Part shown: in pieces, positions 4,355 through 27,722 of the stretch
Layout: the number at the start of each line of letters is the position of its first letter
Numbering within the stretch: the first letter of the stretch is position 1
Position numbers and translations under genes: made by a program
The notes under the pieces: model-generated
What the model saw: only the letters and a program-made list of their open reading frames with translations
Database searches by the model: none
What the model was told of the DNA's origin: nothing
IMG/VR virus record: IMGVR_UViG_3300025655_000207
Location: 1 to 29,099 of that record
DNA: 29,099 bases
Strand: one strand, 5' to 3'
From: a virus

Positions 4355-4376
4355 GATTGCTCCGTTGTATATAATT

Positions 4377-4405
4377 ATTATAACATATTTTAAAAGGAAT
4401 GTCAA
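4377..4405 (-). promoter_or_regulatory. Sigma-70-type promoter P1 (helicase operon)
   Basis: On the minus strand, TTGACA (4405-4400), a 17-bp spacer ending in TGT, and TATAAT (4382-4377): a perfect extended -10 consensus. The predicted start is near 4370, about 16 nt ahead of the helicase ATG. Confidence 0.9.
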
Positions 4406-4431
4406 GTTGTTTTTTTTCTTTTTTTAGTCTC

Positions 4432-4466
4432 GAAAAAAGAAAATGCCCTTTTTTACGGGGCATTTT
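4432..4466 (-). terminator. Rho-independent terminator
   Basis: A 9-bp stem (4440-4448 with 4458-4466, AAAATGCCC/GGGCATTTT) with a 9-nt loop, followed in the minus direction by CTTTTTT. It ends transcription from the envelope-protein genes just before promoter P1. The opposite strand also has a T-run, so it may work in both directions. Confidence 0.85.
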
Positions 4467-4528
4467 TGTAATTTTTGAATTATATCGACGATTACTAACT
4501 CGTTATTAAATTTTATTTTGATGACTTA

Positions 4529-5109: not shown

Positions 5110-6063
5110 TTATGCTGCAATTCTTCTAAACGCCGCATAGAGATCATCAAATTTATAAGCCACGAAACCGTCCTGAAGGGTCATCTTTTTTATCTCGGTT
5201 AAATTCATTTTTGGCTCAAATTCAGAGACATTATACATAATTCGCTGAAGTGTTTGATGCGACATATTTGGATTATATAGTTGCATTATACCATAATTAG
5301 ATTGGATCAAAGAAGAATTGTCGATAATCTTCTTATGACAGTTGAGAGCCTTTCCCACTTGTCGACAATGTTCAATAAGATCCTGACTGCTGTAACTTTT
5401 TGACTCAGCCATGAAAGGAAAATGCTTTTTAACTGTGCCAAGCCCAACACGAGGAACGCCTTCAATGTTGTCCGATGCATCCCCTGCGATTGCTCGAGCA
5501 AGGGCAAAATTATTGGGATGAATACCAAATTCAGAAATAACGCTATCTTGGGTAACAATTGTGTCTTGAATCGGTCGGTAAAGAGTGGTTTCCTCGTTGC
5601 AGAGTTGGAGGAAGTCTTTATCAGAAGACACAATGATTTTACTACGTCCTCTGTAATGATCTGATCCTGCGAGAACGCCGACCACATCATCTGCTTCAAT
5701 TCCATCAACCATAATTTGTATAACCGGCATTTCATTAAGATATTCAACTAACCTATAAAATTGATATGCTTTATTTTTTTCTTGTTCCTCGTCGGATAGT
5801 TCGTACATTCTTCGGTTAAAGCGGACCGGAGAGCGTCCTTCTTTGTAGTTTTTGTTTTGGGCTTTGCGCCGCTGGCTTCCGCCTTGTCCGTCCCAACAGA
5901 TTACAATTTCGTCGGGACCAAACATTCGGACAACCTTTTGGAGAGATTTGAGAAATCCCATACATCCTCCGAGCGGTCGCCCTTTTGAGTCAATCGTTGG
6001 GTTTACGATGTAACTCCTGATGAACATGTTTAGTCCATCGATTAGCATTATATCATGTTTCAT
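5110..6063 (-). CDS. 5'-3' exonuclease / flap endonuclease (RNase H-like)
   Basis: 317 residues from the ATG with GGAGG four nt upstream, 10 codons inside the longest frame. The FEN/PIN fold is clear: D9 (LIDG), D58 (CWDG), IEADD at 122-126, SSDKD at 146-150, and GDASDNI at 194-200, which is the acidic turn leading into the helix-3-turn-helix GVPRVGLGTVKKHF (202-215). These acidic residues bind the two metal ions. In T4 (RNase H) and T5 (D15), relatives remove RNA primers and 5' flaps on the lagging strand. That suits this phage, whose DNA polymerase gene carries no 5' nuclease domain. It is driven by promoter P2 and lies upstream of the envelope-protein pair. Confidence 0.9.
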   Translation of the reverse strand: MKHDIMLIDGLNMFIRSYIVNPTIDSKGRPLGGCMGFLKSLQKVVRMFGPDEIVICWDGQGGSQRRKAQNKNYKEGRSPVRFNRRMYELSDEEQEKNKAYQFYRLVEYLNEMPVIQIMVDGIEADDVVGVLAGSDHYRGRSKIIVSSDKDFLQLCNEETTLYRPIQDTIVTQDSVISEFGIHPNNFALARAIAGDASDNIEGVPRVGLGTVKKHFPFMAESKSYSSQDLIEHCRQVGKALNCHKKIIDNSSLIQSNYGIMQLYNPNMSHQTLQRIMYNVSEFEPKMNLTEIKKMTLQDGFVAYKFDDLYAAFRRIAA

Positions 6064-6083
6064 TGTGCCTCCATGATGTATAT

Positions 6084-6120
6084 AATATAACATGCCCCAA
6101 GACGGTTGTCAAGGGGCATG
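6084..6120 (-). promoter_or_regulatory. Promoter P2 nested in an inverted repeat
   Basis: TTGACA (6112-6107), 17-bp spacer ending TGT, TATATT (6089-6084). The 8-bp arms CATGCCCC (6091-6098) and GGGGCATG (6113-6120) flank the -35 box: one arm abuts it upstream and the other fills the spacer to 1 nt before the -10. An A-rich tract upstream (6121-6140) could act as an UP element. The hairpin may also terminate the 79-aa gene transcript or be an operator. Confidence 0.85.
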
Positions 6121-6151
6121 CGTTATTTTTTAGGATTTTATTTTGAATTTA

Positions 6152-6391
6152 TTAGAATTTCATGCAGACCATATCCTGACCTGCTGCTGAACCTAAAGCG
6201 ACTTCTATGACACTATTCCTCTGCAAATGTGATGTCAATTCTTTTGTTCCGTTGTAGGTTGCACAGATCCAAGATGTCGAATAAGCATTTGCTTTGGGGA
6301 CAAAGAGACTATATGCTCTCTCTGCTGCTATGAATATAAAGGCCAAAGCAACAATGGCCATTGTGAAAGATTGAAATTTATTATTTATCAT
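6152..6391 (-). CDS. Small exported protein, paralog of the preceding gene
   Basis: 79 residues; the start is the ATG with GGAGG about 6 nt upstream. The N-terminus MINNKFQSF is identical to that of the 84-aa gene just upstream (6441-6695), followed by a hydrophobic segment and VPKANA|YS, a good signal-peptidase I site. The mature domain starts with an S-SW-C pattern and carries a second Cys near the end (C36 region and MVCMKF), suggesting a disulfide-bonded periplasmic or secreted mini-protein. The two genes look like a tandem duplication that diverged after the signal peptide. No family is recognised. There is no promoter of its own in the 49-nt gap, so it is probably cotranscribed with its paralog from P3. 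Confidence 0.75.
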   Translation of the reverse strand: MINNKFQSFTMAIVALAFIFIAAERAYSLFVPKANAYSTSWICATYNGTKELTSHLQRNSVIEVALGSAAGQDMVCMKF

Positions 6392-6440
6392 TTTTACCTC
6401 CGAATGATATTGATATTTGAAATTTGTAAAGAACTGCTTG

Positions 6441-6695
6441 CTATGAAGCGGCACACATGAAGATACCAGCAGATCCGGGACTTGGATCTTGTACCAAAGA
6501 AACTTGAATAATGTTTTCTTGATTTAATATTCGCTGTAGAGTATCGCCTGTGTGATCAATGCGACCACAAGCCCAACTATAAGAACCTGCTCTTGCCTCT
6601 GGTACAAAGGCATCATATATTTTATCTCCGGCCAAGATACACAAAGCCAATGCTATCGTAGCCAACATAAAAGATTGAAATTTATTATTTATCAT
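6441..6695 (-). CDS. Small exported protein, paralog of the following gene
   Basis: 84 residues; ATG with GGAGG five nt upstream. It has the same MINNKFQSF start as the 79-aa gene downstream, then a hydrophobic helix and VPEARA|GS, a plausible signal-peptidase I site. The mature part begins with S-SWAC and ends FMCAAS, so the two Cys of the mature domain are kept in the same relative places as in the paralog, while the sequence between them differs. Cleavage to a periplasmic, disulfide-bridged peptide is the simplest reading; a single-pass membrane anchor is the alternative. It is the first gene after promoter P3. The function is unknown. Confidence 0.75.
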   Translation of the reverse strand: MINNKFQSFMLATIALALCILAGDKIYDAFVPEARAGSYSWACGRIDHTGDTLQRILNQENIIQVSLVQDPSPGSAGIFMCAAS

Positions 6696-6722
6696 TTTTC
6701 CTCCATTATTAATGATGCTTAT

Positions 6723-6759
6723 AATATAACATGCCCCAAGACATTTGTCAAGGGGCATG
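6723..6759 (-). promoter_or_regulatory. Promoter P3 nested in an inverted repeat
   Basis: TTGACA (6751-6746), 17-bp spacer ending TGT, TATATT (6728-6723). Arms CATGCCCC (6730-6737) and GGGGCATG (6752-6759) bracket the -35 box exactly as in P2. It drives the exported paralog pair and sits directly behind the 157-aa gene. Confidence 0.85.
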
Positions 6760-6768
6760 AGACATTAT

Positions 6769-7242
6769 CTACAAAGAATTATACATTAATTCAAATTCTT
6801 TTAATTTCTGTAAGTGATTCATTTTAGACTCAGCTTCACGAACCCACTTATCAAATTGCCAACGACCAAAATTATCGACATCAATGTCATGAGGCGGGCT
6901 GCAAGGCGAACTAATAGAAATATATTCTAAATCATCTTCAAGGCTACCACGCCAGAGAGAAGCTTTGTCGGTTTTTCGAAATATTTGGTTTGGAGAGAGC
7001 GTTTCTTCTTTATACTCAATGCAAATGAATCTCTTATTTTCACATCTCATATCTTCTAATTCAGAAATATAAGGGACTTTAATAGTTCTCTCTCCATATT
7101 CAGCATATTTTCTGCGTGCTTCCTTCTTTAGTTTGGCTCTGAAACAGTCAATATCATCTTTATGCTTCAGTGCTAAACAATAAAAGTAACTTTCTGACAA
7201 CCCGAAATATGATTGCCAGTCACAATATTTATCAAATTCCAT
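6769..7242 (-). CDS. Unknown cytoplasmic protein
   Basis: 157 residues, ATG with AGGAGG upstream, flanked by promoter P4 before it and promoter P3 behind it, so probably a single-gene unit. It is charged and soluble, rich in aromatic residues and with six Cys (for example at YFYC, DDIDC, MRC, FIC), which do not form an obvious zinc-binding CxxC pair. The N-terminal part (YFGLSESYFYCLALKHKDDIDCFRAKLKKEARRKYAEYG) is reminiscent of a small helical DNA-binding region followed by a basic helix, but this is only an impression. I do not recognise a family. Its own strong promoter implies early expression, as for host-takeover genes. Confidence 0.7.
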   Translation of the reverse strand: MEFDKYCDWQSYFGLSESYFYCLALKHKDDIDCFRAKLKKEARRKYAEYGERTIKVPYISELEDMRCENKRFICIEYKEETLSPNQIFRKTDKASLWRGSLEDDLEYISISSPCSPPHDIDVDNFGRWQFDKWVREAESKMNHLQKLKEFELMYNSL

Positions 7243-7272
7243 TTTTACCTCCTAATGACTTTTGATATATAT

Positions 7273-7309
7273 AATGTAACATGCCCCTTGACATTTGTCA
7301 AGGGGCATG
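7273..7309 (-). promoter_or_regulatory. Promoter P4 in a perfect 30-bp palindromic element
   Basis: TTGACA (7301-7296), 17-bp spacer ending TGT, TACATT (7278-7273). Here the repeat is perfect over 14 bp per arm (7280-7293 and 7296-7309) with a 2-bp centre, so TTGACA is present on both strands. The plus-strand copy has only a weak -10 (CATTAT/ATTATT near 7310-7316). It shares its A-rich flank with P2. Confidence 0.82.
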
Positions 7310-7336
7310 CATTATTTTTTAGGATTTTTGTTTAAT

Positions 7337-7534
7337 TTATTCTTGTTTTTCAAGATCGATCATTGCTTTAACAATAGCAGCGGCTTCTTTCTTTACTTCA
7401 CGAAGTGCTTTTCGGGCTCTCGTCCCTGCTGCTTTGTTCCCCTTCTCCAAGCTCTTTTGAAGATCCCACTCTATCGATAATAATAGTTCTTTTAGGTCTT
7501 CGTATTGTTTTTGAATTTTCTCTGCGGATTGCAT
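7337..7534 (-). CDS. Histone H1-like protein (Hc1 type)
   Basis: 65 residues, ATG with AAGGAG eight nt upstream. Residues 31-52, KGNKAAGTRARKALREVKK and on, match the core of the bacterial histone H1-like Hc1 family (chlamydial Hc1 has GNKAAAQRVR; Bacteroidetes versions have GNSAAGTRVRKG-L). The preceding helix LKELLLSIEWDLQKSLEKG also fits. The Lys-rich C-terminal tail of chlamydial Hc1 is absent, as in the short versions. Such proteins bind and compact DNA, so a role in organising host or phage DNA is plausible but inferred. The gene overlaps the end of the upstream 112-aa frame by 137 nt and is followed by the palindromic P4 element. Confidence 0.72.
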   Translation of the reverse strand: MQSAEKIQKQYEDLKELLLSIEWDLQKSLEKGNKAAGTRARKALREVKKEAAAIVKAMIDLEKQE

Positions 7535-11170: not shown

Positions 11171-11179
11171 ACATATATA

Positions 11180-11208
11180 ATTATAACATATTTTGACTCA
11201 TTTGTCAA
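11180..11208 (-). promoter_or_regulatory. Sigma-70-type promoter P5 (ssDNA-binding protein)
   Basis: TTGACA (11208-11203), 17-bp spacer ending TGT, TATAAT (11185-11180): a perfect extended consensus. The predicted start is near 11173, giving a leader of about 70 nt. Confidence 0.9.
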
Positions 11209-11215
11209 GTCTTTT

Positions 11216-11251
11216 TTTAAAAACAGGGGAGATTTTTTACGAGATCTCCCT
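11216..11251 (-). terminator. Terminator after the WYL_2-like gene
   Basis: Stem GGGAGAT/ATCTCCC (11245-11251 with 11228-11234), 10-nt loop, followed in the minus direction by CTGTTTTTAAAAAAAG. A second weak GGGG/CCCC hairpin lies just upstream (about 11257-11274). It insulates P5 from upstream transcription. Confidence 0.75.
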
Positions 11252-11279: not shown

Positions 11280-11531
11280 TTATTCTGGGAAGTCGATGTT
11301 CTGTTCTTTCGAGACAACTTCGCCTTGAATTGTATTCCAATTAAATGCTCGGAAACCCATTCGTTGAACATCATAGACTAATTCATAGCCTTCTTGCATT
11401 TTTCGTTTAGGATTTCGCTCATAAGGAGCAAATAGATCTGTTGGAAGGTCCTGAGTGCGGACAAATTGCATTGTACGGTTGGTTCCGTCTTGCTTGGTGT
11501 AAGTACCAGTGTAAACTACATAATTATTCAT
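11280..11531 (-). CDS. WYL_2 / Sm-like SH3-barrel protein (formerly DUF2693)
   Basis: 83 residues, ATG with AGGAGG five nt upstream. Two blocks match the phage WYL_2 family by eye: YTGTYTKQDGTNRTMQFVRTQDLP (7-30; family pattern FTKkDGteRvm-cT--lP) and YELVYDVQRMGFRAFNWNTI (about 49-68; family pattern VwD-e---wRsF--dsI). The fold is a small SH3/Sm-like barrel; family members are common in phages and their role is unknown, with ligand or nucleic-acid sensing suspected. Its ATG abuts the stop of the tubulin-like gene, and an internal promoter (P7) about 160 nt upstream can drive it alone. Confidence 0.68.
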   Translation of the reverse strand: MNNYVVYTGTYTKQDGTNRTMQFVRTQDLPTDLFAPYERNPKRKMQEGYELVYDVQRMGFRAFNWNTIQGEVVSKEQNIDFPE

Positions 11532-12328
11532 TATACCTCCTGAATGAAATGAGTGTAGTGAATCCCGTAAGCATAAGAATGCTCATATGGGGATTGGTAA
11601 ACAGTAAATGAAGAAATAATATCATCATCTAATCTGTTTTTTATCTCAGAGATAAGATTTGAATTATTTTCAATCTCGCTCTTTTTGATATTATTAATAT
11701 AACATGTTTCGGTTACATTGTCAAGTGGAAAAAATAACTTTTTTTCTTTTTTATTGGTCTCGGAGAATGAGAAGGTTCTGATTCTTGAGATTTCCTTTGG
11801 CTCATGCAATTGTCCGAAGACAGGGTCGGTATGAGCGAAAACATTCATTGAATGAACACAATTAAAGATTAATTCGTTCATTTTTGAATAATAAGAGGCC
11901 AATGGGGCTTCTCCAACGATTTCTTGAAGAGAATTATTAGAAACAAGATAAATCGCCTCGAATAAACCAGATCTAGCGTATTCTTGAAGCACCCCCATGC
12001 TTACTTTATTACGCTTTTTTGCTGAATCTGATGAAATTGAGACATCAGGCACGATATAAACAATGTTTATTTTGTTTTCTTTGATTTGTTCAAGTAATCG
12101 TAGAGTCGCCCCAGCAATCTTTCCTGCACCGCAAACAAAAAACCAGATAGTTTCTCCTTTGATCTTTGCAAGTTCTTTTTTATTTGGGAATTCATTTTCG
12201 TATCCTTCTGAAGATTCATTAAGGGGTACATTCTTTCCTCCATCATAGGTCAAAACTTTGTAATTATCATAAGATTTAAACATTTCGGCTATTGAGCAGC
12301 CTGCTTTACCAAGACCAATCACTACCAT
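11531..12328 (-). CDS. Tubulin/FtsZ-like protein (diverged)
   Basis: 265 residues, ATG with GGAGG upstream, overlapping the polymerase stop by 7 nt. It reads like the front half of a tubulin/FtsZ fold: MVVIGLGKAGCSIAEMF (1-17) as the first glycine-rich nucleotide loop, WFFVCGAGKIAGATLRLLE (62-80) where FtsZ has its GGGTGTG signature, INIVYIVPD (88-95) as the following strand, LQEYARSGLFEAIYLVSNNSL (114-134) as the helix-strand-Asn that contacts the base, and MNELIFNCVHSMNVF (150-164) as core helix H7. The canonical GGGTG[TS]G is replaced and no clear T7-loop catalytic Asp is seen, so GTP hydrolysis is doubtful. PhuZ and TubZ are phage/plasmid precedents. A Rossmann-type enzyme is the alternative. 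Confidence 0.5.
   Translation of the reverse strand: MVVIGLGKAGCSIAEMFKSYDNYKVLTYDGGKNVPLNESSEGYENEFPNKKELAKIKGETIWFFVCGAGKIAGATLRLLEQIKENKINIVYIVPDVSISSDSAKKRNKVSMGVLQEYARSGLFEAIYLVSNNSLQEIVGEAPLASYYSKMNELIFNCVHSMNVFAHTDPVFGQLHEPKEISRIRTFSFSETNKKEKKLFFPLDNVTETCYINNIKKSEIENNSNLISEIKNRLDDDIISSFTVYQSPYEHSYAYGIHYTHFIQEV
11696..11724 (-). promoter_or_regulatory. Internal promoter P7
   Basis: Inside the tubulin-like gene: TTGACA (11724-11719), 17-bp spacer ending TGT, TATATT (11701-11696). It would give a transcript from about 11689 carrying the WYL_2-like gene. Confidence 0.75.
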
Positions 12329-13512
12329 GAGAAATCCTCCAATAATCCATAAGTTTTACCTGCTTTTAGGTTGATTTTGAACTTACCAAGACGAGTTTGC
12401 TCGAATATCTGCTTGATTTGAGGCAACAAATGAGCGTCTTGATTCGAGAAGTCGAGAACAACGCAATCGTGAAGACAGAAAGCAATTGTTGACTTACGAC
12501 CAGACAGCATTTTCATTATTTTGTTTGCTCTATCCATGCAATTATCCGATGAGGTGCTTTGAAGAAGATAATTTAAAGCATGAAATGAATCACACTCTAT
12601 TTGTCTTCCAAAGATAGTATTAATATAACCTGTTTTATAATACTTGTCAAGTATTTTTTCTTTATTATAATAATTTTTTAGTTCCTCGTCCTTTGAGTCG
12701 GGATTATAAAGCCAAGCAAAGAATCGTCGCTTCGCATTGTCTCGGCTCATTGGAGTTTTAAAGACATTTTCGATATTAAATTGATGAATGTCCTCGGAAG
12801 GTTGGTCGATTCCGGCAAGAGCCAACAGCGTGCGGATCTCGGCGGCATTGAAGTCAAGTTCGATGAAGAGATCGTTTTGTGGAACAACGATTTTGCGATG
12901 TTCTGCTTTCAGATTCATAATTGGAAACGAGTCTTGGGTTGTGGTCAAACGACCCGTGATTGTACCAAAAAGATTGTAAATAACAGCAGATTTTTGCTTT
13001 GAAAATCGTTTGTAGAGTGATCTTGCCTTTGGGTCTTGGAGGAACAAAAGATTGTGATTATCCCAATCTATTCGCAATTCCTGCTGTCTTATTTTATTGA
13101 TGGTCGACTGTGTTTCGACGAGGAAAGAGTAATTCTTTGGTCTTGGGTTGTTTGCAACGACCCATTCGGTGATTTCGTTTCTCAACTGATAATAATGCCG
13201 CAGAATATGCCGAGGCACCAAGTCATAAATGCAATTATCATCCAAGTTGATCTTTGATCCAACAATCGCCTTAACGTGTGCTTCCAACCGTCGCTTTCGA
13301 AATACATAACGATCAACAAGATGATCAGGAGCGCAATCATCAATGCTCTGTCCATTAACCCAAAGTTCTGCGAAGTCGACATTATAATCCTCCAAATGTT
13401 CTGACCAAGACCATGTAAGATCTAGATTGCGAGGCAACTTATCAAAATAAAAATCTCCGTTGTAGAAAACTCCTTTACAGTCTCGTTTATCGTCTAATGT
13501 TTGAAATGTCAT
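12322..13512 (-). CDS. Minimal family A DNA polymerase
   Basis: 396 residues, ATG with GGAGG upstream. The polymerase domain motifs are in order: GTITGRLTT (183-191), motif A IELDFNAAEIR with D220 and E225, motif B RDNAKRRFFAWLY with R257 and K261, GYINTIFGRQ (295-304), ALNYLLQSTSSD (312-323), and motif C CLHDC with H348, D349, C350. Escherichia coli Pol I has HDE here, so the second acidic residue is replaced by Cys while the essential Asp is kept. No 3'-5' exonuclease domain is present (T7 polymerase is 704 aa, Pol I 928), and the N-terminal 150 residues are unassigned. Proofreading must come from another gene, if at all. Promoter P6 drives it from within the end of the upstream late gene. 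Confidence 0.88.
   Translation of the reverse strand: MTFQTLDDKRDCKGVFYNGDFYFDKLPRNLDLTWSWSEHLEDYNVDFAELWVNGQSIDDCAPDHLVDRYVFRKRRLEAHVKAIVGSKINLDDNCIYDLVPRHILRHYYQLRNEITEWVVANNPRPKNYSFLVETQSTINKIRQQELRIDWDNHNLLFLQDPKARSLYKRFSKQKSAVIYNLFGTITGRLTTTQDSFPIMNLKAEHRKIVVPQNDLFIELDFNAAEIRTLLALAGIDQPSEDIHQFNIENVFKTPMSRDNAKRRFFAWLYNPDSKDEELKNYYNKEKILDKYYKTGYINTIFGRQIECDSFHALNYLLQSTSSDNCMDRANKIMKMLSGRKSTIAFCLHDCVVLDFSNQDAHLLPQIKQIFEQTRLGKFKINLKAGKTYGLLEDFSW
12622..12650 (-). promoter_or_regulatory. Internal promoter P8
   Basis: Inside the polymerase gene: TTGACA (12650-12645), 17-bp spacer, TATATT (12627-12622). The base pattern ahead of the -10 is GGT instead of TGT, so this is the weakest of the set. 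It would feed the tubulin-like gene. Confidence 0.65.
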
Positions 13513-13524
13513 CTTGCCTCCGAT

Positions 13525-14781
13525 TTAATATATTGTAACACCCTCCATCTTTTTTGTCAAGGCCTTTTTTAAATTTCTTTTATTTATTTTTGAGAATGTC
13601 CCTCCGTCCTTGAATTTTCTGACAGATGTGAACTTGTTATTAATTAATTCCATTACTTTTAATCTATCATATCTTTGTAAATATGTTGTCATATCTCTAC
13701 TAAATGTCATTAATTCATTTTCATTTAAAGGATTATCTTCTTCTATATTTCTTATATTAATATATAAATCTATAAATAATATATTATTATTAATTAATCT
13801 ACTAATAACATTATTATTAATATTTTCTTTATAAGATATTTCCGATATAGTCTTACCATCGCAAGGTTTCAGAGTTTTTATGTAAGGTTTTTTATTGACA
13901 AACACCCTATAAGATGTTATAATGTTATCTAAAAGCTTATCAAAATCGGAGGTGTAAGTTTGTTTATATCTTGTTCCAAAAACACTATCGGTGGAACCAA
14001 GAAGATATTTAGCCATATACTTTTTGGTTATTGGTGATTCCAAATCAGCAACCAACATATATGGCACATTCTTGTTTACAGAAAAGCCTGTTTCTTTTGC
14101 AAAATTAAGAAATAGCGGAAAACTCCTGTTTCTAATAAAAAGATCATCCTTGGTTTCATCAACATCCATTGGAAGGTCTGCTATTGTTACTGCGAGACCA
14201 GAACTAAAAATGCTACTTTGATTACTTAACATGAATCCAGAAAATGTCAAGGGAAAAGTTGCTCCTAATTCTTTGCTATATTTTTTCAAATGCATCACAT
14301 ATTGTTCTACAGTTTTAACATCTTTTTCTCTATTACCCCCAAATAGATAATCGTTGTTAAAATTGTCCAATATTGCTGTAATATATTGTTTATAATCAAA
14401 AGCAGGATCAACATAAGAATTATAAGCGACAAGATCGGTAAAATAAGGATCGTTTTGTGGTATTTGGCCTAATTTGCAAGATCTAAAAAACTTTTCTGAT
14501 AAAGTTCCAAACATATCTGCGACAAAATCCATTAAAAATGGAGTAGTTTCGGGTTGCCTAACATAAGGAATCGATTTAACAAATTGATTATCCGGATAAA
14601 CTGGATTTAATCTAGAATCCACACGTCCATAATAAGCTCGTTCTGCAAAATTAAAATCTGTTATTGGTTTTATATCAAGACCATCCTCATCCTTGGCATA
14701 AGCACCATAATTGTACCTGTTCCTTTGTGCCATAAGGTTTTTAGTTTGGTCTGTATCGTTTTTTCCGTTAAATCTAGCCAT
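13525..14781 (-). CDS. Probable virion structural protein (tail/baseplate region)
   Basis: 418 residues, ATG two nt after the stop of the 1220-aa gene; the ribosome site is weak (TTGGA). It is the last gene of the tail operon. No membrane segment, enzyme motif or signal is visible. The sequence is rich in N, D, Y and F (for example DFNFAERAYYGRV, VPYMLVADLESPITKKYMAKYL, SVFGTRYKQTYTSDF), typical of large phage structural proteins, and the Asn/Ile-rich stretch at about residues 315-350 coincides with very AT-rich DNA (13640-13850). Position suggests a baseplate or tail-fibre-attachment component; this is inference. Two promoters lie within it: P6 at the 3' end and an opposing plus-strand one at 13895-13923. 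Confidence 0.75.
   Translation of the reverse strand: MARFNGKNDTDQTKNLMAQRNRYNYGAYAKDEDGLDIKPITDFNFAERAYYGRVDSRLNPVYPDNQFVKSIPYVRQPETTPFLMDFVADMFGTLSEKFFRSCKLGQIPQNDPYFTDLVAYNSYVDPAFDYKQYITAILDNFNNDYLFGGNREKDVKTVEQYVMHLKKYSKELGATFPLTFSGFMLSNQSSIFSSGLAVTIADLPMDVDETKDDLFIRNRSFPLFLNFAKETGFSVNKNVPYMLVADLESPITKKYMAKYLLGSTDSVFGTRYKQTYTSDFDKLLDNIITSYRVFVNKKPYIKTLKPCDGKTISEISYKENINNNVISRLINNNILFIDLYINIRNIEEDNPLNENELMTFSRDMTTYLQRYDRLKVMELINNKFTSVRKFKDGGTFSKINKRNLKKALTKKMEGVTIY
13532..13560 (-). promoter_or_regulatory. Promoter P6 (DNA polymerase), inside the 3' end of the late gene
   Basis: TTGACA (13560-13555), 17-bp spacer ending TGT, TACAAT (13537-13532). The bases also encode the last residues (KKMEGVTIY) of the 418-aa protein. 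The predicted start, near 13525, coincides with that gene's stop codon. Confidence 0.85.
13895..13923 (+). promoter_or_regulatory. Opposing (antisense) sigma-70-type promoter
   Basis: On the plus strand, TTGACA (13895-13900), 17-bp spacer ending TGT, TATAAT (13918-13923): a perfect extended consensus of the same type as the phage's own promoters. All genes around it are on the minus strand, so the transcript, from about 13930, would be antisense to the 418-aa and then the 1220-aa genes. Confidence 0.65.
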
Positions 14782-18446: not shown

Positions 18447-18778
18447 TACTTCATCACCTGCACGACTCTAGCCAAAGGGCGAGGAATCATTAATGTGTCT
18501 CCGACTTTGATATCCCCCTCGAAAGGGATTTTATTAAATTGAGCTATAATATACCAATATTTTGGATCACCGTAGAATTTCTCGGAGACCTTATAGAAAT
18601 TATCATTTGCTTGCCAATAGTACTTTGTTAATTCAAGATTGTCAATCTGCTCTTTTGAGGGATAAGTTAATTTTTTTGTTCGATATTGTTGAATTTGTTT
18701 TATATTTCTGTTCTCAAACAATTCTTCGTATTGCGGATGTTTATTGGTTGCTTTCTTTCTGTTTGAATTTCTAGACAT
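18446..18778 (-). CDS. LysM-domain baseplate protein
   Basis: 110 residues, ATG with GGGAG eight nt upstream. The N-terminal 40 residues are basic and disordered. Residues about 53-98 form a LysM-like module: YWQANDNFYKVSEKFYGDPKYWYIIAQFNKI, then IKVGDTLMIP, matching the tail-LysM pattern (YGDP-xW-x-I-x-xxN and GD-x-L-x-IP). In contractile-tailed phages such small LysM proteins (T4 gp53 type, P2 gpX type) bind inside the baseplate and stabilise it, rather than necessarily binding cell wall. It is placed between the tube/baseplate junction candidate and the hub gene and overlaps the hub start by 1 nt. Confidence 0.8.
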   Translation of the reverse strand: MSRNSNRKKATNKHPQYEELFENRNIKQIQQYRTKKLTYPSKEQIDNLELTKYYWQANDNFYKVSEKFYGDPKYWYIIAQFNKIPFEGDIKVGDTLMIPRPLARVVQVMK

Positions 18779-24806: not shown

Positions 24807-27722
24807 TTAGAATTGAACTCCGGATCTCGTGATTACAAAGTCAACTGCGATAAACTCGATTGCTTTGGCTGGCTTCACATAGATTTTGGCATAGAGGATG
24901 TTTCTGTCCTGAAGATCTGGAGTGGTTGTGCTTGAATCAAGAATAACTTTGAACTCTGTGATTCCGCCTCGTGCTTTAATTCTATTAAGCACTCGCTCTG
25001 CTCTGCTCTTGAACTTGTTCCAAGTAACTTGGATGTTCTGGTCGAACAGGATAGTATTAGCAATTCTGCCGATTCTCTTCTTAAGATAAATCATCATACG
25101 ACGAACGTTGATTCTGTCAAGAGCTGATGGAGTTTGCTGAAGCGTCTTTTGTCCGAAGATTACAAACTCTCCTTGAAGACGAGCAATTGGGTTAATATCA
25201 AGTTCGTAAAGATCATCACGATTTGCTTTGTTCATTGTCTCAACAACAGAGAGAACGCTTGGCCCAGCATTTCCGCCGAGGTTTGTAAGTCCACCACGAT
25301 TGAATCCGGCAGGAGCAAACCAAGGAGCACTCAATGCTTGAGATCTTGCAAGAGCACCACAAGCAGCAACTGAAGGAGGAACAGGTGTTACAACTGTATC
25401 ACCTTTCTGCTGAACTCTAACCCAAGGATGATAAGCAGCAGCGTATGATGAATCAAAGTTTCTTGAACGAACAGCAGAAATAACACTTGCTAATGAACCT
25501 TTGCCTTCTTGAGAGGGTGTGGTTTCCGCTGAAGATGAATATGCGTCTTGAAGATCAATAATAGCAAGAGAATCTTGTCTATCATTGCAGATATCGATCA
25601 TTCTGTTAGTAATATCTCGATTATTAATACCGGGCATCAAAAGAAGATCCATTTCAACATTCTCTGGGTCACTGGCAATGTCTAATGCTTTGTTCAAAGA
25701 ATAGAAAGTATAACTTGTAGATTCTGTACTTCCAATGACACCACTTCTGTTATTAAAAGGCTCAAGTTCTTTAATATTTAGACCATCAAAGCCACCAAAT
25801 AAAGGAACAATAAAGCGCTTAATCTTTGCATCAAGGAGTGCTTGGTCGCCATTAGTCGCTGTATAAGAAGTACCAGCTAAACGAGAACCAGAAAGATAAT
25901 AACCCTCAACATTTGTCGAATCATATACGACATCATCCAAAGAAAAAATGAAAGAGGTCACGGTTTCATCAGATGTTGTATGAGCATCCCAATTATAAGG
26001 CATTGCACGGATTAAATCTCTATAAGATTGATCCAACACACTGGATGCTGAAAGTTGCTGATTAATACCAAAGAAATCAGTTACTTTATAATTCGAATCT
26101 TGAACACCCTTGGAATTAACAGTTGTCAATCTCAAAGATGGAAAGTTAAAAGTAACAATTCTTTCATCTGCTCCATCTTTTGAGCCAACAAGAGCGAAAC
26201 CACTTTGATCAGCATCAGCAATCTCTTCTGGAACACCGGGAAGATTACCAGAGCCAACAACCATGGCGGTCAAAAGATTTGAACTATAGTCATTTGGATC
26301 AACAGGTCGTGCATTACTTCCGGAAAGACAGAAGCTCTTGAATTTTTGCGGACCATAAAAACCGAATGGAAGAGCATATTCGTCTTGTGGTTGTTGATCG
26401 TTTTTGAGAGCATCGGCCATTTCAATTCGAATATAATCAGATTGATTATTATATTTTCCGACCATATTGAATTTTTTATCGGCGGCATCCCAAACCATGT
26501 TCATATCACCAATTCTTTTAAGAATGTAGTTATCTGACACTGGATTCATAGAAAGATTTGAGAATTGCTCTATAAGACGATTGGTTCCCCACTCATAAAC
26601 GCTGAGAGTGAAGGTTGAATTCTTATTAACTTGTGTTCCAAGTTTAAGTCCTTCAATAGCACAGTAATATTGGTCTTGGAAAGCCTTGCCTTCATGGAGA
26701 GCAATAATTCTGAATAGCTTTTCAGCATTTTCTGGAGTATAGCTTGTATTGTCCTCAGAAGGATCGCGATTAATAATCCAACCAGATTTAGCAGCAATAG
26801 CACCAAATTGATGATCTGAATATTCTGTCAATGTTGGGCGAGCAGCGCCGGGAACAACACCAGTAGATCCGGAAGCAAGACCAAGGACGATACCCAATTG
26901 CTGTCCGGCAGTTCCGGTAGAAGAGCCATCTCTATTAAGCATTTCTTCAAAAGTTTCACCTAACCAGTATGTCTTGAGATCAGATGTTTCATTGATTGCA
27001 GTAGTAACTTTATGTGGAGTTGTATTGAAAACAGTTCTAATATAGTTCTTGCTTCCGGGATTGAAGTCAAATACGACATTATCAACAACAGTACCACTTG
27101 AATTTTTAATAATCGCTCTAAAAGTCGCAGCATTACCGCTGCCTAAAGAAGCAAACATTGTAGCAGAACCTGTACCCTGAGTAGTTCCGGCATTATCAGC
27201 AATTGTTCCAGAAAGCTCAATAGAACCTTCATTCACATAAAATATAGCAGCCAAAGATCCTGTTGCATTTGCTTGAGGATTTGAACTTGAAGGAGCGACA
27301 AAAAGACCAAAAGCGCCACCAGAAGCAGAATAAGCCGTATCTAAATCTTTAGCTGTATTCCATCCGGCAGTACCGATACCATGAGTTGCACTATCAGAAT
27401 CTTCACCCAAAAGGCGAATAAAAGTAACTGGTGAATCGTTTGCTGCAAGCCATGCTTCGGCTGCAATAGCAGCATATGTAGGAGCAATGGTATTTCCTTG
27501 TCTCCAAACATCCATTGGGCCCGGTTGTGGACCATAAACAGGATTACCAAAAACGGTAACAAAATCGTCAAATGAATTAATTTTGATTGGCTTCATCGAG
27601 GGGCCACGGAGAGCACGTCCAATCAAAAGAGGTCCATCGTCTTGCAATTGCGCAGGAACTGTACTTTGGTCAACCTCGGTTAATTGGATGCCGGGTGAAA
27701 TAAAGTCAAATTTTCTAGGCAT
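24807..27722 (-). CDS. Tail sheath protein (large, gp18-like)
   Basis: 971 residues, ATG with AAGGAG upstream. The N-terminus FDFISPGIQLTEVDQSTVP (5-23) and the C-terminal domain (RINVRRMMIYLKKRIGRIANTILFDQN to IEFIAVDFVITRSGVQF, about residues 870-971) are typical of contractile sheath subunits, whose ends form the interlocking strands that hold the sheath lattice. Length is well above T4 gp18 (659 aa); the extra about 300 residues lie in the middle, Ser/Gly/Ala-rich and beta-like (residues about 120-330), presumably as domains on the outer surface. It contracts to drive the tube through the host envelope. It is transcribed with the tube genes, before a 37-nt gap. Confidence 0.93.
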   Translation of the reverse strand: MPRKFDFISPGIQLTEVDQSTVPAQLQDDGPLLIGRALRGPSMKPIKINSFDDFVTVFGNPVYGPQPGPMDVWRQGNTIAPTYAAIAAEAWLAANDSPVTFIRLLGEDSDSATHGIGTAGWNTAKDLDTAYSASGGAFGLFVAPSSSNPQANATGSLAAIFYVNEGSIELSGTIADNAGTTQGTGSATMFASLGSGNAATFRAIIKNSSGTVVDNVVFDFNPGSKNYIRTVFNTTPHKVTTAINETSDLKTYWLGETFEEMLNRDGSSTGTAGQQLGIVLGLASGSTGVVPGAARPTLTEYSDHQFGAIAAKSGWIINRDPSEDNTSYTPENAEKLFRIIALHEGKAFQDQYYCAIEGLKLGTQVNKNSTFTLSVYEWGTNRLIEQFSNLSMNPVSDNYILKRIGDMNMVWDAADKKFNMVGKYNNQSDYIRIEMADALKNDQQPQDEYALPFGFYGPQKFKSFCLSGSNARPVDPNDYSSNLLTAMVVGSGNLPGVPEEIADADQSGFALVGSKDGADERIVTFNFPSLRLTTVNSKGVQDSNYKVTDFFGINQQLSASSVLDQSYRDLIRAMPYNWDAHTTSDETVTSFIFSLDDVVYDSTNVEGYYLSGSRLAGTSYTATNGDQALLDAKIKRFIVPLFGGFDGLNIKELEPFNNRSGVIGSTESTSYTFYSLNKALDIASDPENVEMDLLLMPGINNRDITNRMIDICNDRQDSLAIIDLQDAYSSSAETTPSQEGKGSLASVISAVRSRNFDSSYAAAYHPWVRVQQKGDTVVTPVPPSVAACGALARSQALSAPWFAPAGFNRGGLTNLGGNAGPSVLSVVETMNKANRDDLYELDINPIARLQGEFVIFGQKTLQQTPSALDRINVRRMMIYLKKRIGRIANTILFDQNIQVTWNKFKSRAERVLNRIKARGGITEFKVILDSSTTTPDLQDRNILYAKIYVKPAKAIEFIAVDFVITRSGVQF

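Follow-up and report, generated by a model that had tools for sequence, protein, structure and literature searches.

The window, by which we mean the whole stretch of 29,099 nucleotides analysed here, is a 29-kb fragment of a virus record with 38% G+C, and its recognisable genes all lie on the minus strand. It carries T4-like genes for UvsX (phrog_97), gp32 (PF08804), a DnaB-type helicase, a tail sheath (phrog_23) and a baseplate hub (phrog_150), along with a B12-type ribonucleotide reductase and a family-A DNA polymerase. By gene content, the virus is a distant T4-like myovirus with a family-A DNA polymerase. Cultured phages searched at the DNA level gave no near match to the window.

The locus under study is a variable region with two fixed borders, both on the minus strand. 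The left border is a gene for a 65-aa histone H1-like protein, Hc1 (7337-7534; Pfam PF07432, 4.9e-15), and the right one encodes a 5'-3' exonuclease (5110-6060; PF02739, 5.4e-30; phrog_107, 2.4e-35). Between them lie three further minus-strand genes, which we call cargo: a 157-aa protein without a family (6769-7242), and two paralogues with hydrophobic N-termini and 70% DNA identity, of 84 aa (6441-6695) and 79 aa (6152-6391). Both paralogues begin with MINNKFQSF, and both are also found between two elements in the related loci L027 and L017.

Other genes of the window deserve a brief mention. The family-A DNA polymerase ORF (12322-13512, minus strand, 396 aa) matches only positions 110-219 of the Pfam profile, and the adjoining 418-aa ORF (13525-14781, minus strand) matches no family; this may be a split or a highly divergent polymerase. 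The tail sheath (24807-27722, minus strand) has 971 aa and resembles known sheaths only in its C-terminal third, which suggests a large N-terminal insertion or extension. A 265-aa protein (11531-12328, minus strand) has the N-terminal motif GLGKAGCSIAE and a weak TrkA_N match (E 0.007), with no firm family.

Anatomy of the elements

The pattern CATGCCCC-N14-GGGGCATG occurs exactly three times in the window, at 6091-6120 (element 1), 6730-6759 (element 2) and 7280-7309 (element 3), all read on the minus strand, and had no match in 100 dinucleotide shuffles. The three 30-bp inverted repeats described in the initial annotation are thus confirmed at their exact positions. The half-site, GGGGCATG/CATGCCCC, occurs six times in the window, always inside these elements. 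That annotation had also proposed a search of the rest of the genome, and we found no copy beyond the three in the record, which is the 29-kb fragment itself. The element was not found in prokaryote genomes, and a 28-bp match of the cassette to a Staphylococcus phage (E 1e-3) was taken as chance.

Each element contains a minus-strand sigma70-type promoter with a 17-nt spacer and an extended -10 TG, whose hexamers (TTGACA and TATATT or TACATT) reach 10-11 of 12 consensus matches. The promoter of element 3 (7273-7301; -35 at 7301-7296, -10 TACATT at 7278-7273) precedes the 157-aa gene, that of element 2 (6723-6751; -35 at 6751-6746, -10 TATATT at 6728-6723) precedes the putatively exported pair of paralogues, and that of element 1 (6084-6112; -35 at 6112-6107, -10 TATATT at 6089-6084) precedes the exonuclease. 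On the minus strand, 5' to 3', the common unit reads CATGCCCC TTGACA ANN GTCTT GGGGCATG T TAYATT ATA ... GGAGG ... ATG. The -35 box had been described as lying between the arms; its location is right, but the description is incomplete, since the GAC of the -35 itself pairs with the GTC in the spacer, so that the -35 belongs to the stem. The 3' arm stops 1 nt short of the extended -10.

The stem of element 3 has 13 uninterrupted base pairs and a loop AAAT, with the -35 inside the 5' arm, and its GTCTT reads GTCAA. The stems of elements 1 and 2 consist of 8 bp, a 2x2 T/T internal loop and 3 bp, with loops AACC and AAAT, respectively. RNA folding gave -24.8 kcal/mol (z -7.0) for element 3 and -20.1 kcal/mol for each of the other two (z -5.5 and -5.6). 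A single-stranded-DNA or N4-type hairpin promoter was considered and dropped, since the stem does not include the -10 and the hexamers simply match sigma70.

The upstream stop codon lies about 9-31 nt from the element, and about 24-31 nt separate the -10 from the next start and its GGAGG. Thus, the element occupies the entire intergenic space, from stop codon to Shine-Dalgarno, in agreement with its earlier placement between one gene and the next. The predicted transcript from the nested promoter excludes the stem. The copies also share a wider cassette of 76 nt (6074-6149, minus strand), with 86% identity to 7263-7338 and 72% to 6713-6788.

In the related locus L018, 99.3% identical over 10 kb, the copy of element 3 (4390-4425) is inverted with respect to the window (loop AAAT vs. 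ATTT) and the flanks of this perfect palindrome are not, pointing to a flip within the palindrome.

Nested promoters in related viruses

The same nested design is present in relatives from IMG/VR. Loci were gathered by sequence pattern and, independently of the element, by the exonuclease and by the Hc1-like protein, giving 85 distinct promoters that combine TTGACA with an extended -10. A promoter was called nested when a stem of -9 kcal/mol or better spanned the -35. This was the case for 28 of the 85, a proportion that is not a population frequency because element-based patterns had supplied some of the loci. A Shine-Dalgarno and a start follow 27 of these 28 promoters, and an orthologue of the Hc1-like gene adjoins the element in 14 related loci.

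When the arms of nested promoters were swapped with those of other promoters, 156 of 3192 combinations folded as well, and among non-nested promoters 18 of 3192 did. Since so few swapped arms fold as well, the pairing belongs to the arms as matched partners. We used this partner-swap test instead of shuffling the letters of each arm (14 expected, 34 seen), which is a poor null since CCCC and GGGG survive it.

Variation of the arms

An inverted repeat over a promoter could also be a DNA operator, bound at CATGCCCC...GGGGCATG by a dimeric protein of phage or host that either blocks the promoter or activates it, so that the units form a regulon. The exact two-fold arms over the -35 and spacer would suit such a protein, and the inner C/G pairs are identical in 21 of 26 distinct element sequences. 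Within the main family CCCC/GGGG is invariant, which a pure stem would not require, and the extended -10 in part dictates the outer CATG of the 3' arm.

However, the arms change between lineages. At the orthologous site behind the Hc1-like gene in locus L038, whose exonuclease is 63% identical, the arms are AAACCCTTGAC/GTCAGGGGTTT and form 11 bp. Compared with the window family, three base pairs are changed on both sides with pairing kept, a count reached in 0 of 500 shuffles, and the T/T mismatches are replaced by pairs. Covariation at orthologous sites comes from this one lineage. Elsewhere, unrelated arms occupy the same position: ATTACT/AGTAAT (L020, L021), AAGAT/ATCTT (L102) and GTGGATG/CATCCAC (L004, L106), although folding is weak in L021 and L102 (z -2.0 and -2.6). 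A repressor operator would keep its arm sequence wherever the element occurs, and we found it conserved only inside the main family. Moreover, the TT opposite TT kept in most copies (T1 unpaired in 22/26, T2 in 20/26) breaks the dyad in nearly all of them, and no repressor-like gene was recognised beside the elements. Keeping TT opposite TT may prevent a second TTGACA from arising on the opposite strand.

The paired changes in L038, together with the unrelated arms elsewhere, favour a selected stem over a sequence-specific operator. The dimer operator for a phage repressor put forward in the initial annotation is disfavoured by these arm changes despite the invariant CCCC/GGGG, and we consider it quite unlikely. 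The suggestion in that annotation that the three units are one regulon stands only in the sense of a common promoter cassette, because this cassette is found ahead of many unrelated genes in relatives. Replacement of the arms with pairing kept is evidence, at the level of sequence, for selection on the stem itself.

Stems and terminators

A canonical terminator within 110 nt upstream was found at none of the 28 nested promoters and at 11 of the 57 non-nested ones (shuffled rate 0.2%; Fisher p 0.013, which is optimistic, as are p-values across these loci in general, because the loci are not independent samples). With terminators absent upstream of nested promoters and present at some non-nested ones, the nested stem seems to replace the terminator. 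The tandem layout is seen in the window itself, where a separate minus-strand hairpin with a T-rich tail (4439-4467) lies upstream of the non-nested promoter at 4405-4377 and another, GGGAGAT..ATCTCCC followed by a T tract (11227-11250, minus strand), upstream of the one at 11208-11180; the L018 copies of both were scored in the terminator scan.

At least five further near-consensus promoters of the window (11176-11210, 11692-11726, 12618-12652, 13532-13573 and 4373-4418) have no nested CATGCCCC-type stem, and most of them combine an extended -10 with A-rich sequence upstream.

A canonical intrinsic terminator is a GC-rich stem with a U tract directly behind it, and the elements have such a stem. 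Their sense-strand tail, UUAUAUUAUAU, is only moderately T-rich, scoring 3.3-3.8 against a random mean of 2.27 and a 95th percentile of 3.54. The same stretch scores 3.53 at nested and 3.24 at non-nested promoters; thus, the tail score is set by the -10 sequence itself. Tail scoring found no dedicated sense U-tract beyond the -10. An alternative is an RNA processing or stability element, in which read-through RNA would be cut or protected at the stem (an RNase III/E site or a 3' end stabiliser) and the units separated after transcription. A strong stem right after the stop codon in read-through RNA and a T tail that does not clearly exceed what the -10 supplies would fit it. However, the alternation with canonical terminators at other promoters suggests that the nested stem substitutes for a terminator, and we hold the processing element to be unlikely.

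A terminator acting in antisense or in both directions, which would mainly stop rightward (plus-strand) transcription, was weighed as well. The plus strand of element 3 reads as the stem followed by CATTATTTTTT (7280-7309) and was the top terminator-like match of the scan, and a run of at least five A, which is T on the other strand, lies upstream in 20 of the 28 nested elements. But A-runs also lie upstream of 29 of the 57 non-nested promoters and fit an UP element, and eight of the 28 copies, element 2 of the window included, have none. With the recognisable genes of the window all on the minus strand, this function is very improbable.

The nested stem probably terminates transcription of the upstream gene, on indirect grounds. 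A terminator hairpin doubling as promoter had already been offered as one reading of the elements; the co-varying arms of L038, the unrelated arms elsewhere and the lack of a separate upstream terminator at nested promoters lend it indirect support, with termination as its predicted part.

Gene content at the cassettes

Between the Hc1-like and exonuclease genes, element copy number tracks gene content. In three relatives (L012, L032 and L033) the two borders, 85 bp apart in L012, enclose a single element and no gene, whereas in the window 1274 bp hold three elements and three extra genes. Further relatives have one or two elements and other cargo, such as a C5 cytosine methylase (L036), a PD-(D/E)XK nuclease (L013) or a DUF4385 protein (L031). 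The repeat common to the copies reaches up to 76 nt. Bare and filled sites, with copy number following gene content, are the pattern expected from recombination between copies, and recombination events at the cassettes are likewise suggested by this pattern.

Comparison with known systems

Composite elements of this type are reportedly known from T4-type phages: Arbiol et al. in 2010 and Comeau et al. in 2014 are said to have described PeSLs (promoter-early stem-loops), which combine an early sigma70 promoter with a terminator stem-loop and take part in modular shuffling. They have reportedly been described in phage RB49 and its relative phi1. In our scan of the first 50 kb of RB49, seven of 11 intergenic promoters had a stem overlapping the spacer or the -10 (shuffled rate 6.6%; binomial p ~1.5e-6), and two of the 11 had a tandem terminator. 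At the RB49 promoter that precedes gene 43 (-35 at 18532), an interrupted stem encloses the -35, and its geometry matches that seen in the window. PMC4503421 also cites the PeSLs of T4-type phages.

The elements of the window resemble PeSLs in their short cassette, which unites a strong sigma70-type promoter with a stem-loop and is repeated between the small genes of a variable region, in the gene content that varies between relatives at the cassettes, and in their carrier, a T4-like myovirus, although here a distant one. They differ in that most scanned RB49 stems lie in the spacer or around the -10, whereas the stem of the window phage encloses the -35, as at RB49 18532. The overlapping stems of RB49 and the shared cassette features place the elements of the window within the known PeSL kind, with termination by the window's stems as a prediction. 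In the haloarchaeal myovirus HGTV-1, a repeated promoter-like motif with an inverted repeat lies before many ORFs and has been likened to PeSLs (PMC3950731). It shares with our elements a repeated promoter motif containing an inverted repeat ahead of many ORFs, but the promoter is of the archaeal TATA type and the likeness is one of description.

Taking all of this together, we consider it likely that each element is a PeSL-type composite terminator-promoter that mediates gene shuffling in a distant T4-like myovirus. The anatomy of the elements, the arm covariation, the missing second terminator and the relation of copy number to gene content are read directly from the DNA, and promoter activity, including its early class, is predicted from it. 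Polymerase leaving the upstream gene would transcribe the arms, the RNA would fold into the stem, with the AT-only -10 region just behind it, UUAUAUUAUAU, acting as a weak-hybrid release tract. As duplex, the same DNA would serve host sigma70 as a promoter (TTGACA, 17 nt, TGnTATATT) for the next gene, whose transcript would get a short leader without the hairpin. Since about 30-76 bp are common to every copy, homologous recombination could add or remove genes between copies.

After intrinsic termination RNA polymerase often remains DNA-bound and can initiate again at promoters close by (Kang 2020, PMC6978380; Harden 2020, PMC6978322). By analogy, the element might be a hand-over site, where polymerase that has terminated in the AT-rich -10 does not leave the DNA but starts again at the promoter it has just read through. 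Restart near the release site is common to both, and here release site and promoter would coincide; however, recycling after termination is general biochemistry of the bacterial polymerase, and we regard the hand-over site as a speculative idea with a small chance of being right. If true, the output of each unit would be tied to the traffic from the preceding one.

With stop and start signals superposed in about 40 bp, the element would be a compact natural part for studying termination and re-initiation. These findings would add a T4-like lineage that is distant and uncultured to those with composite terminator-promoter cassettes, and the comparison of one locus in its bare and filled states points to the cassettes as marking the joints where phages swap small genes.
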